NCBI RefSeq assembly: GCF_003610255.1
Contig: NZ_RAPS01000001.1
Span: 4,712,001 to 4,776,000, forward strand
DNA: 64,000 bases
Direction of reading: 5' to 3'
Source of the DNA: Streptomyces sp. TLI_171
Lineage (GTDB): Bacteria; Actinomycetota; Actinomycetes; Streptomycetales; Streptomycetaceae
The position numbers and the translations under genes were made by a program. This document shows, piece by piece, positions 29,046 to 32,841 of this stretch. Each line of letters begins with the position of its first letter. The stretch's first letter is position 1. The notes below the pieces were generated by a model. That model did no database searches and was not told where the DNA came from. It worked only from the letters and a program-made list of their open reading frames with translations.

Positions 29046-29720
29046 TCAGCGTTTGACCGCGCAGAGCAGGCCGTCGGAGACCGGGAGCAGGGCCGGCAGC
29101 AGGGTGTCGCTCTCCCGGATGTCGGCCACCAGGTCGCGGACGGCGCGGATCCGCGGGTCGTCGAGTCCGGGTTCGGCCAGCCGGCCCTCCTGGAAGACGC
29201 CCTCGAAGCAGACCACGCCGCGGGGCCGGAGCAGGCGCAGCGCCTCGGTGAGGTGGAAGCGGGAGTCGGCCGGGTCGCCGTCGCAGAACACCAGGTCGTA
29301 CTGGCCGTCGGCGAGCCGGGGGAGGACGTCGCGGGCCCGGCCGGGGATGAAGCGGGCCCGGTTGGCGGCGAACCCGGCGGCCAGGTAGGCCTCCCGGGCG
29401 TACTGCTGGCGGACCGGCTCGGAGTCGACGGTGGTGAGCACCCCGTCGGCGCGCATGCCGCGCAGCAGGTAGACGCCGGAGACGCCGGTGCCGGTGCCGA
29501 CCTCGACCACGGCCTTGGCGTCGAGGGCGGCGGCGAGCAGGCGCAGCGCTGCTCCGCCGCTCGGGCCGATCGCGCGTATCCCGGTGCGGGCCGACTGGGC
29601 CCGGGCGTAGGTCAGCACCGCGTCCTCGCCGACGTAGGTGTCGGCGAGGGCCGCTCGCTGGGGCCCGAACTCGGTGATGGCTGCCTCTTCCGGAGCGCCG
29701 GTGCCGACCGAAGTCGACAA
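29046..29720 (-). CDS. O-methyltransferase family protein (class I, SAM-dependent)
   Basis: A 224-residue cytoplasmic methyltransferase of the Methyltransf_3 family. SAM-binding motif I is [16 protein letters not shown], the acidic end of strand 2 is TTVDSEP, and [14 protein letters not shown] carries the metal-binding Asp region. The homologue in Mycobacterium (Rv1220c) stands in the same place, divergent from sigE. The substrate is unknown. The ATG at 29720 opens [21 protein letters not shown]. Confidence 0.88.
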
Positions 29721-29853: not shown

Positions 29854-30675
29854 ATGGTGGTGGCTCTGCTGGGCAGAAGAGCCGACCGAGGAGGTGTGGC
29901 CGAGGGCGACGTCCCTGTGCAGCGGCATTTCCGCGGCACCTCGTCGGCCCGTACGCCGAAGCCCGTGATGAACCAGTCTGTGCATTCCCCCCTGGACAAG
30001 CCGACCGCAGCCGACGACTCGGTGGTCGAGACCGCCGGCACGCTCGCGTCCTTCGCCGAGGGGCCCGACGCGCAGAGCTGGACGCCGCCCAGCTGGGAGG
30101 AGATCGTCGAGGCGCACAGCGCCCGGGTCTACCGCCTCGCGTACCGGCTGACGGGCAATCAGCACGATGCCGAGGACCTCACGCAGGAGGTCTTCGTCCG
30201 GGTGTTCCGCTCGCTGTCCACCTACACCCCCGGCACCTTCGAGGGCTGGCTGCACCGGATCACCACCAACCTGTTCCTGGACATGGTGCGCCGCCGCCAG
30301 CGGATCCGCTTCGACGCCCTCGCGGACGACGCCGCGGAGCGCCTGGCCAGCCGCGAGCCCAGCCCCGCCCAGCACTTCAGCGACACCCACTTCGACGCGG
30401 ACGTCCAGCAGGCGCTGGACACCCTCGCGCCGGAGTTCCGGGCCGCCGTCGTGCTCTGCGACATCGAGGGCCTCTCCTACGAGGAGATCGCCGCCACCCT
30501 CGGCGTGAAGCTCGGCACCGTCCGCAGCCGGATCCACCGCGGTCGCTCGCACCTGCGCGCGGCCCTCAAGCACCGGGCGCCGAACACCGCCGCGGGCCGC
30601 AACCGCCGGGGCGGCTCGGAGGAGCCCGTGCCGGTGGGCGCGGAGCCGGGCGGCAGCGACCGGAGGGGGTCATGA
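29854..30675 (+). CDS. sigE: ECF RNA polymerase sigma factor, SigE-like
   Basis: A 273-residue group 4 sigma factor. Region 2 spans [59 protein letters not shown], and region 4 [27 protein letters not shown]. It directs envelope-stress transcription and is held by the anti-sigma encoded next (start overlaps its stop as ATGA). The N-terminal 80 residues are poorly structured. The start is uncertain: the ATG at 29854 has GAGGTGG nearby, and an alternative ATG lies at 29968. An autoregulatory promoter is at 29749. The symbol reflects orthology with mycobacterial sigE by context, not Streptomyces SigE. Confidence 0.88.
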
Positions 30676-31535
30676 GCGATCGCGCCCCCGAGCGCGCGGA
30701 CGCCCCCGGGCGCTCGCGCTGGGCGCCGCTGCGCCGGGTCGAGCCGGCCGCCCCGCCGGCGCCCGACCTGCGGCCCGTGGCGCTGCGTCCGGTCGAGCCG
30801 GCCGCCGAGGAGCACCACCTGGGCGACCGGCTGACCGCCTACCTGGACGGCGAGCTCGGCCACGACGCCCGCGAGCGGGTCCAGGCCCACCTGGCGACCT
30901 GCGCGGACTGCCTGGCCGAGGCCGAGGACGCCCGCGCGGTCAAACGGACGCTCAGCGGCGCCGGCACGCCCGGCCCGTCGGCGGCCCTGATGGCCCGACT
31001 GATGTCCGTCGCCGCACTGCCCGAGGACGAGCCGGGCCCTGACGGTCCGTCGGGGTCCGGCGGCGTGTTCGGCGGCAGCCGGCTCACCGGCGGCTCGTTC
31101 GGCCGCGGCGCCGGCTTCGGCGGGGGCGCGCTCGGCGCCGACGCCCCGATACCCGGGATCGACCCGCGGGCCGGCCTGTTCGGCTCCCGCCCGTCCGCCG
31201 CACCGCGCCGCGACCCGGCCGCGATGCCGCGCCCGCTCGCCGCACTCGGCGAGCTGCCCACCGCCCGCCCGCAGCCCGCCCGCGGCCGCCGGCTGGTGTT
31301 CGCCGCCGCCGGGGCCTTCTCGGTCGCCGCGGTCACCCTCGGCGGGGTCGGCGGCGTCACCGCGGGCCAGGGCACCACCCGGCAGCCCACCAGCGTCACC
31401 CCGGTCGGCGGGGCGATCGTCCCGGTGAACGCCCAGCAGCCCGCCGCGGACGTGCAGGAGTACCCGCTGCGCACCCGGGCCCAGGCCAGCGCCCCGCCCT
31501 CGCCTACCGGTGACCCGCGGCAGCTCCTGCGCTAG
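30672..31535 (+). CDS. Zinc-type anti-sigma factor, membrane-anchored (RseA-like)
   Basis: A 287-residue regulator of the sigma factor before it. The anti-sigma domain (about 45-95) reads [35 protein letters not shown], with His73, Cys77 and Cys80 as the HxxxCxxC zinc motif. A Gly/Pro-rich linker and one helix (about 208-231, [21 protein letters not shown]) follow, and a short outer tail. This fits release by proteolysis or by thiol oxidation under stress. In the usual actinobacterial order an htrA protease gene follows; here tatB follows directly. Confidence 0.9.
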
Positions 31536-31667
31536 CCTGCCTTCACCGGCACGCCGTCGACGCCGGTCACCCGGGTGGTCTTTACCACGGTTTCATCCAC
31601 GGGGGGCCGGGGGAACGGCCGACCGCGTTTACCCTTGTTGCAGCGTTGTCGGGTGCTGGGAGTTCAG

Positions 31668-32090
31668 GTGTTCGGAGACATAGGCGGACTGGAGGTCATG
31701 ACGCTCATCGTCATGGCCATCGTGATCTTCGGCCCGGACAAGCTCCCCAAGCTGATCCAGGACACCATGGGCTTCATTCGCAAGATCCGCTCCTTCGCGG
31801 ACAACGCGAAGGAGGACATCCGCAGCGAACTCGGGCCGGAGTTCCAGAACTTCGACTTCGAGGACCTCAACCCGAAGACCTTCGTCCGCAAGCAGCTGCT
31901 CGGCGACGGCGAGGACCCGCTCGGCCTGAAGGACCTCAAGGACAGCGTCGACATCAAGTCCGCGCTGAACGGCGACCCGACGCCCACGCCCACCGCCTCG
32001 GTCGACTTCTCCAAGGCCGCCACCGCCGCGAGCGCCGGACCGGCGCTGTCCGCCGGCGAGCGCCCTCCGTTCGACCCGGACGCCACCTGA
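31668..32090 (+). CDS. tatB: Sec-independent protein translocase subunit TatB
   Basis: A 140-residue Tat component that receives folded, twin-arginine precursors with TatC. It has the short outer N-terminus (VFGDIGGLEVM), a single helix (TLIVMAIVIFGPDKLPKLIQD with the conserved FGP hinge), an amphipathic helix (RKIRSFADNAKEDIRSELGPEF) and an acidic variable tail. The GTG at 31668 places the FGDIG motif at the very start as the family requires; GGGAG lies 6 bases upstream. TatA and TatC are not in the window. Its place after the sigma/anti-sigma pair links export to envelope stress. Confidence 0.93.
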   Translation: MFGDIGGLEVMTLIVMAIVIFGPDKLPKLIQDTMGFIRKIRSFADNAKEDIRSELGPEFQNFDFEDLNPKTFVRKQLLGDGEDPLGLKDLKDSVDIKSALNGDPTPTPTASVDFSKAATAASAGPALSAGERPPFDPDAT

Positions 32091-32199: not shown

Positions 32200-32841
32200 G
32201 TGGACGCCACGCACAGCACGGTAGGCACCGCCGCCACGCGCCAGCCCGCCGACCCGTTCGCCGCGCACCGCGCCGCCGACTTCGCCTGGTACGGCCTCGA
32301 CGAAGGCTGGACCGGCCGCCGCTGGCTCGGCCAGGTCGGCACCGGCCAGCGGGCCGCCGACATCCCCGACTACGGCACCCTCGGCCACGGCGACGAACCC
32401 GGCCGCGGCCCCGAACCGCGCGACACCCGGCGGTTCGCCGTCGTGGTCACCGTCGCCCGCCGGGACGTCCGCCGCAGCGCCGACAACACCGGCACGCTGG
32501 AAGCCACCTCCGCCTCCTCCGCCGCCTGGCTGGCCGGCGCCGGACTGCTCGCCGCCACCTGGCCCGGCAACCTCGACCGCACCCTCCGGCAGAACTGGCT
32601 CGACCAGCAGTCCGCCCTCGCCTGGGACCTCGCCGACGACCTCGAAGGCCCCGGCTGGTCCTCCCTCACCCTCCCCGTCAACGGCCTGCCGCAGCCCTTC
32701 CGCTACCGCGAATCCGAGTACGGCTGGGTCCTGGCCGGCGAGGCCCCCGGCGTGCTGATCGGCGCCTACGGACGCTCGGTGTCCGCGTACGGCGTCGGCT
32801 TCACCGCGGTCTCCGACCTGGAGACGTACGACGGGCGCTAG
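32200..32841 (+). CDS. Conserved actinobacterial protein of unknown function (213 residues)
   Basis: A soluble protein without signal peptide or helix of membrane length. Aromatic-rich motifs FAWYGLDEGWTGRRWLGQVGT and PGWSSLTLPVNGLPQPFRYRESEYGWVLAGE look conserved and could line a binding site. A GTG at 32200 is preceded by AGGAGG with 6-base spacing. It follows tatB after 109 bases. Its stop TAG overlaps the stop of the convergent membrane gene by three bases. I do not recognise the family and assign no function. Confidence 0.75.
   Translation: MDATHSTVGTAATRQPADPFAAHRAADFAWYGLDEGWTGRRWLGQVGTGQRAADIPDYGTLGHGDEPGRGPEPRDTRRFAVVVTVARRDVRRSADNTGTLEATSASSAAWLAGAGLLAATWPGNLDRTLRQNWLDQQSALAWDLADDLEGPGWSSLTLPVNGLPQPFRYRESEYGWVLAGEAPGVLIGAYGRSVSAYGVGFTAVSDLETYDGR

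Follow-up and report, generated by a model that had tools for sequence, protein, structure and literature searches.

Lineage-specific loss of the htrA2 protease gene from the sigE-rseA-tatB locus of Kitasatospora

A sigE-rseA-tatB locus without a protease gene

The window, by which we mean the whole stretch of 64,000 nucleotides that was analysed, contains an ECF sigma factor gene, an anti-sigma factor gene and tatB in a row. We use sigE in its mycobacterial sense throughout; the S. coelicolor gene named sigE is a different gene. The features of the locus are:

29046..29720, minus strand: O-methyltransferase gene, synteny anchor upstream of the sigma factor gene (Pfam Methyltransf_3; keeps this position in the longer loci of the family)
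29968..30675, plus strand: ECF sigma factor gene, SigE in the mycobacterial sense (Pfam Sigma70_r2 and Sigma70_r4_2; its homologue adjoins rseA across the family)
30672..31535, plus strand: gene for an RseA-type zinc-binding, membrane-anchored anti-sigma factor (Pfam zf-HC2)
31536..31667, plus strand: 132-base rseA-tatB interval, the probable ancestral site of htrA2 (no htr match; TACNNT-like block near tatB)
31668..32090, plus strand: tatB, twin-arginine translocase subunit, with a GTG start (TatA_B_E match just under the cut-off; aligns with TatB of the family)
32200..32841, plus strand: gene for a conserved 213-residue protein, synteny anchor 3' of tatB (same place across the family; no Pfam match)

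The start of the anti-sigma gene overlaps the stop of the sigma gene (30672 versus 30675), and its product has an HxxxCxxC motif, a hydrophobic segment and a 61-residue tail. The window's TatB scores 19.6 bits against the 21-bit Pfam cut-off and aligns well with the TatB proteins of the family. Two elements of a sigE-rseA-htrA-tatB locus are therefore in place, an ECF sigma gene followed by a zinc anti-sigma gene and tatB at the 3' end; the third, a gene for a PDZ serine protease in the rseA-tatB interval, is absent. Pfam and HtrA searches agree with the preliminary description, which had given this gene row with a gap of exactly 132 bases and no protease frame. HtrA queries against bases 31401-31800 (400 bases) returned nothing better than E 0.04, which is chance level, and found no recognisable protease remnant in the interval. 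The alternative raised at that stage, an htrA gene hidden in an assembly gap, is ruled out: the contig is 8.0 Mb long, the window contains no N, and the same interval is found across the genus.

From gene order, together with the published description of the protein, we presume that the protease gene absent between rseA and tatB is that of HtrA2 (SCO5149). The Streptomyces proteins are named HtrB (SCO4157), HtrA1 (SCO2171), HtrA2 (SCO5149) and HtrA3 (SCO3977; PMC3498368). HtrA2 of S. coelicolor and S. lividans is described as a predicted membrane-anchored serine protease with a PDZ domain (PMC5157995) and as a target of CssR (PMC3498368, PMC5157995).

The window's genome (G000, 8.46 Mb) has Kitasatospora as its nearest named relatives; genomes (G), loci (L) and genera (g) are numbered within our sample. 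TatB was matched in 69 of the 70 genomes of the genus, the exception being G046, and HtrA-type queries (E 0.01) found no htr match at tatB in any of these 69 loci. Sixty-seven of them are informative, with rseA upstream; contig ends truncate the other two, L033 and L060. Among named loci, the best 80 of 550 comprise 25 of Kitasatospora type without htr, four of which (L112, L113, L116 and L117) are truncated in this way and carry no information on the point, and 55 with htr, labelled Streptomyces, Actinacidiphila glaucinigra or Microtetraspora. The absence of htrA2 is a trait of the genus and nothing peculiar to G000.

Nine of the named loci (L110, L112-L114, L116, L118, L121, L122 and L127) are labelled Streptomyces or Saccharothrix; these names are probably outdated or wrong, and the genomes would belong to the window's genus. 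G050 has a weak second TatB match, and a second TatB-like match in G087 (L262) lacks the usual neighbours and has no htr beside it. In the close relatives of G000 (L014-L024) the sigma match adjoins or overlaps the anti-sigma match, and the two lie further apart in much of the genus (L025-L035, L043-L081), where the distances are those of aligned parts, not whole genes. The overlap of the two genes in the window differs from M. tuberculosis, whose pair is reported not to be cotranscribed (PMC10027907).

The locus in the family and class

Outside the genus, we analysed 70 of 227 family genomes, a non-random sample made up of the best TatB matches, genomes covering the genera, and extra g7. An htr gene lies directly upstream of tatB in 50 of these genomes and is missing in 18; the remaining two are G132, cut by a contig end, and G079 (g11), without a TatB match. 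The 18 are made up of 17 of the 27 sampled genomes of g7, a genus that includes Actinacidiphila glaucinigra, and of G090 of g8, a 5.4 Mb draft of about 410 contigs in which the sigE-rseA-tatB stretch is on a single contig. In the second g8 genome of the sample, G076, htr is present, and all sampled members of g2-g6, g9, g10 and g12-g17 carry it at tatB.

In other families of the class, TatB adjoins an htr gene in 22 of 27 loci (no more than one htr locus was taken from each genome; 29 of the 38 genomes with a match were newly added), and the flank in four of these also shows sigma and anti-sigma genes. In the other five no TatB lies beside the htr gene examined, which counts against a common ancestral order. 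M. tuberculosis is reported to have the same order of sigma, anti-sigma and tatB genes with an htrA that is absent here (PMC10027907). Together these loci uphold the earlier view that actinomycetes commonly have htrA ahead of tatB.

A FastTree locus tree of 96 genomes was built from the sigma factor, TatB and the downstream 213-residue protein, with 23 of the 69 loci of the genus. In it the HtrA2-bearing g12 is sister to the window's genus (support 0.985; 0.996 for the window's genus itself). If presence is ancestral, this tree needs three losses, in the window's genus, in one g7 clade and in G090, a count drawn from a single FastTree on three short markers. The absence of htrA2 in Kitasatospora is derived, since the protease is encoded beside tatB in the sister genus, in most of the other Streptomycetaceae genera sampled and in most of the other-family loci. 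The preliminary description had named close relatives lacking htrA ancestrally as what would count against a loss; the relatives do lack the gene, but their state is not the ancestral one. That the family began without htrA at tatB and that Streptomyces gained it is hardly credible: the informative loci of the genus, all without htr, agree with it, but the htr-tatB neighbourhood recurs in the other families and, as published, in M. tuberculosis too (PMC10027907).

The intergenic spacing is consistent with a clean deletion. Across 77 loci, tatB follows the rseA stop by 106-223 bases where htrA2 is absent, which is about the distance at which it follows the htrA2 stop in the others (98-234 bases). 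The 132-base interval is well conserved in eight close relatives and less so in two more distant ones. In an alignment of 24 loci chosen from the 77, a tatB-proximal block with a TACNNT-like core is seen in most, with and without htrA2, and is a candidate tatB promoter. The matching spacing and the common block suggest that the deletion took htrA2 with its own upstream region and spared the apparent tatB promoter.

We consider it highly probable that the common ancestor of Kitasatospora deleted htrA2, encoding a PDZ serine protease for quality control at the cell surface, from a sigE-rseA-htrA2-tatB cluster, with the remaining HtrA set presumably bearing secretion-stress proteolysis since then. 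Such a deletion would have left rseA and the tatB-proximal region intact, and the proteolysis would have fallen to HtrB beside CssRS and to the HtrA1-type and HtrA3-type proteases. With htrA2 lost, an otherwise known locus takes a lineage-specific form, and the loss is repeated elsewhere in the family. A limited look at the open-licence literature found no published account of it in Kitasatospora.

The remaining HtrA-type proteases

We wondered whether HtrA2 has moved elsewhere in the genome, where it could still serve the same pathway. The genome of G000 has 12 Trypsin_2 matches, ten of them above the cut-off, and an HtrA2 query, the locus protein from G093 of g12, matches three htr genes (htr1, htr2 and htr3). 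The nearest match, htr1, groups (99/94) with the second htr copies of g12, a genus that carries HtrA2 at the tatB locus as well, and with Streptomyces copies outside the tatB and cssRS loci (HtrA3-type). It groups with the proteases of the tatB locus in neither of two protease trees. The product of htr2 is of HtrA1 type, with protease and PDZ domains, only 36% identity to the query and a start that, judged by eye, is lipobox-like. The third, htr3, is of HtrB type: its product has Trypsin_2 and lacks a PDZ domain, and the gene is flanked by a LacI-type regulator gene and by cssRS, as in Streptomyces; CssR is encoded beside it, cssS is intact, and the whole HtrB-CssRS region is syntenic with that of Streptomyces.

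The second protease tree, made from 29 of 52 earlier htr sequences and four new ones with long and deep rows omitted, separates the locus proteins (0.935) from the HtrA3-type group (0.943). All seven Kitasatospora HtrA3-type sequences tried, including five further copies, fall in the latter; about 7-8 HtrA-type proteins of the genus were placed in a tree. In the larger tree, the locus proteins of g3, g5 and g8 have no firm placement and long branches were flagged, which weakens the case for a single origin of all locus proteins. Against the 70 genomes of the genus, the best match to the HtrA2 query scores 280-342 bits, with 46-54% identity, in 67; three drafts (G043, G044 and G047) have no match at 1e-45. 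With this query the locus protein of G103 reaches only 312 bits, a value within the HtrA3-type range; HtrA2 and HtrA3-type proteins are therefore not separable by score alone.

Each of the three htr genes of G000 falls in a paralogue group found in the sister genus alongside HtrA2, and a relocated HtrA2 is accordingly very unlikely. Of the "loss or relocation" first suggested for htrA, the loss stands; the protease trees and the HtrB-CssRS synteny speak against the relocation, and the genome-wide check of proteases and their neighbours recovered three HtrA-type genes of other paralogue groups, none of them HtrA2.

Kitasatospora G019 has two HtrA3-type protease genes on different contigs (L412 on C2, L413 on C1). 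Both were considered as HtrA2 candidates and rejected, as their scores lie in the HtrA3-type range and both are HtrA3-type in the second tree. Elsewhere in G000 (L216:4037-5218, minus strand; C1, about 3562 kb), a gene encodes a protease in which a Colicin_V production domain precedes Trypsin_2, an arrangement presumably like that of MarP.

Compared with S. coelicolor and S. lividans, G000 thus lacks HtrA2 and has the HtrB-CssRS, HtrA1-type and HtrA3-type genes. In S. lividans, CssR is reported to bind the HtrA1, HtrA2 and HtrB genes, single mutants of which have reduced amylase activity; none of the three proteins replaces another in single copy (PMC5157995). By gene content, HtrB and the HtrA1-type and HtrA3-type proteases may have taken over the work of HtrA2 in Kitasatospora. 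A scan for published CutR and CssR motifs near htr genes in 14 loci returned one CutR-like site only and scattered CssR-like motifs; the scan has no power, as it finds no CutR-like site near htrB or the HtrA3-type gene of two Streptomyces genomes either. The single CutR-like site, TAAATAAA, is just upstream of htrB in G108 (L226:5580).

The HtrA of this locus is reported to be essential in mycobacteria (PMC10027907, PMC12735335) and HtrA2 is not replaceable in S. lividans, yet a whole genus, together with at least two other lineages, does without it. The conserved four-member HtrA set of Streptomyces is therefore not family-wide, which bears on protein-secretion hosts. The HtrA2-less lineages are natural knock-outs in which the function of HtrA2, the rseA-tatB position and the client that makes HtrA2 needed can be studied.

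Candidate clients of HtrA2

The anti-sigma factor had been presumed to be the client of HtrA, by analogy with E. coli, where DegS, a trypsin-like protease with a PDZ domain, is paired with RseA, an anti-sigma factor in the membrane (PMC12826053). HtrA2 would then make the first cut in the anti-sigma factor, and Kitasatospora would have rewired the release of its sigma factor. The gene neighbourhood and the membrane segment and outer tail of the factor fit this proposal. However, the HxxxCxxC motif, the hydrophobic segment (mean over 19 residues, 1.62-2.23) and a tail of at least 61 residues are present in every anti-sigma factor from 77 loci, of which 47 lack and 30 have htrA2, so that 47 of 47 HtrA2-less loci retain the zinc motif, the membrane segment and the outer tail. 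Removal of M. tuberculosis RseA has been assigned to PknB phosphorylation and ClpC1P2 (PMC10027907, PMC11173970), and the S. lividans gene named HtrA2 is reported to be under CssR control (PMC3498368). Because the factor keeps its parts without HtrA2 and destruction of the mycobacterial RseA is assigned to ClpC1P2, the presumed client relationship is unsupported, and a first cut by HtrA2 is improbable. The retained parts give no sign of dependence on HtrA2, although cleavage would still be compatible with them. Unlike the E. coli pair, the actinomycete loci gave no sign of an HtrA cutting the anti-sigma factor, which is presumably not an obligatory client of HtrA2.

In M. smegmatis, HtrA is reported to control the toxic wall amidase Ami3 (PMC12735335). 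Restraint of a secreted peptidoglycan amidase could likewise have been the ancestral job of HtrA2, which would have become dispensable and been lost where the amidase was gone or otherwise controlled; we regard this as a tentative and rather unlikely explanation. A PF01510 search of 15 genomes, with a tree of 25 sequences, brought out a group of secreted PGRP-type amidases, here called alpha, in 7 of 7 HtrA2-bearing and 2 of 8 HtrA2-less genomes, a difference in the expected direction. A profile search of 55 genomes followed, five of them common to the first 15, with a cut-off of at least 450 bits that we set ourselves between two groups; the split matches of G002 and G013 were summed, and a partial match with a stop in G040 was counted as absent. 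It found alpha in 20 of 23 HtrA2-bearing genomes; the three without it (G086, G103 and G073) speak against the explanation. Within g7 the contrast is clear, with alpha in 7 of 7 genomes with HtrA2 versus 0 of 14 without, one of the latter (G174) being only 71% complete. A related amidase group, beta, shows no such contrast there (4 of 7 versus 4 of 14). The 14 HtrA2-less g7 genomes form one clade, so that 0 of 14 may reflect a single event and the Fisher value overstates the case.

Kitasatospora is mixed: 11 of 18 sampled genomes have alpha, all without HtrA2, which argues against strict dependence. The alpha group, picked after looking, is a candidate counterpart of Ami3 that is not a clean clade in a quick tree, where one beta sequence is badly aligned; NCBIfam holds no name for it, and its PDB matches are general PGRP proteins and amidases. 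The co-loss of amidase and HtrA2, clear in g7 and mixed in Kitasatospora, is a lead only. It is similarly doubtful that HtrA at this locus restrains an amidase from mycobacteria to Streptomyces and that its repeated loss goes with loss or re-wiring of the amidase. Were amidase restraint the explanation, Kitasatospora, without HtrA2 and both with and without the amidase, would show how a protease that is elsewhere essential or non-redundant can become dispensable.

The number of Amidase_2 matches also varies among these genomes: two in G000 (C1:4141928, L329, and C2:242471, L319) and two each in G042 and G001, six in G052, of the same genus as G000, and 5-10 in seven HtrA2-bearing relatives.
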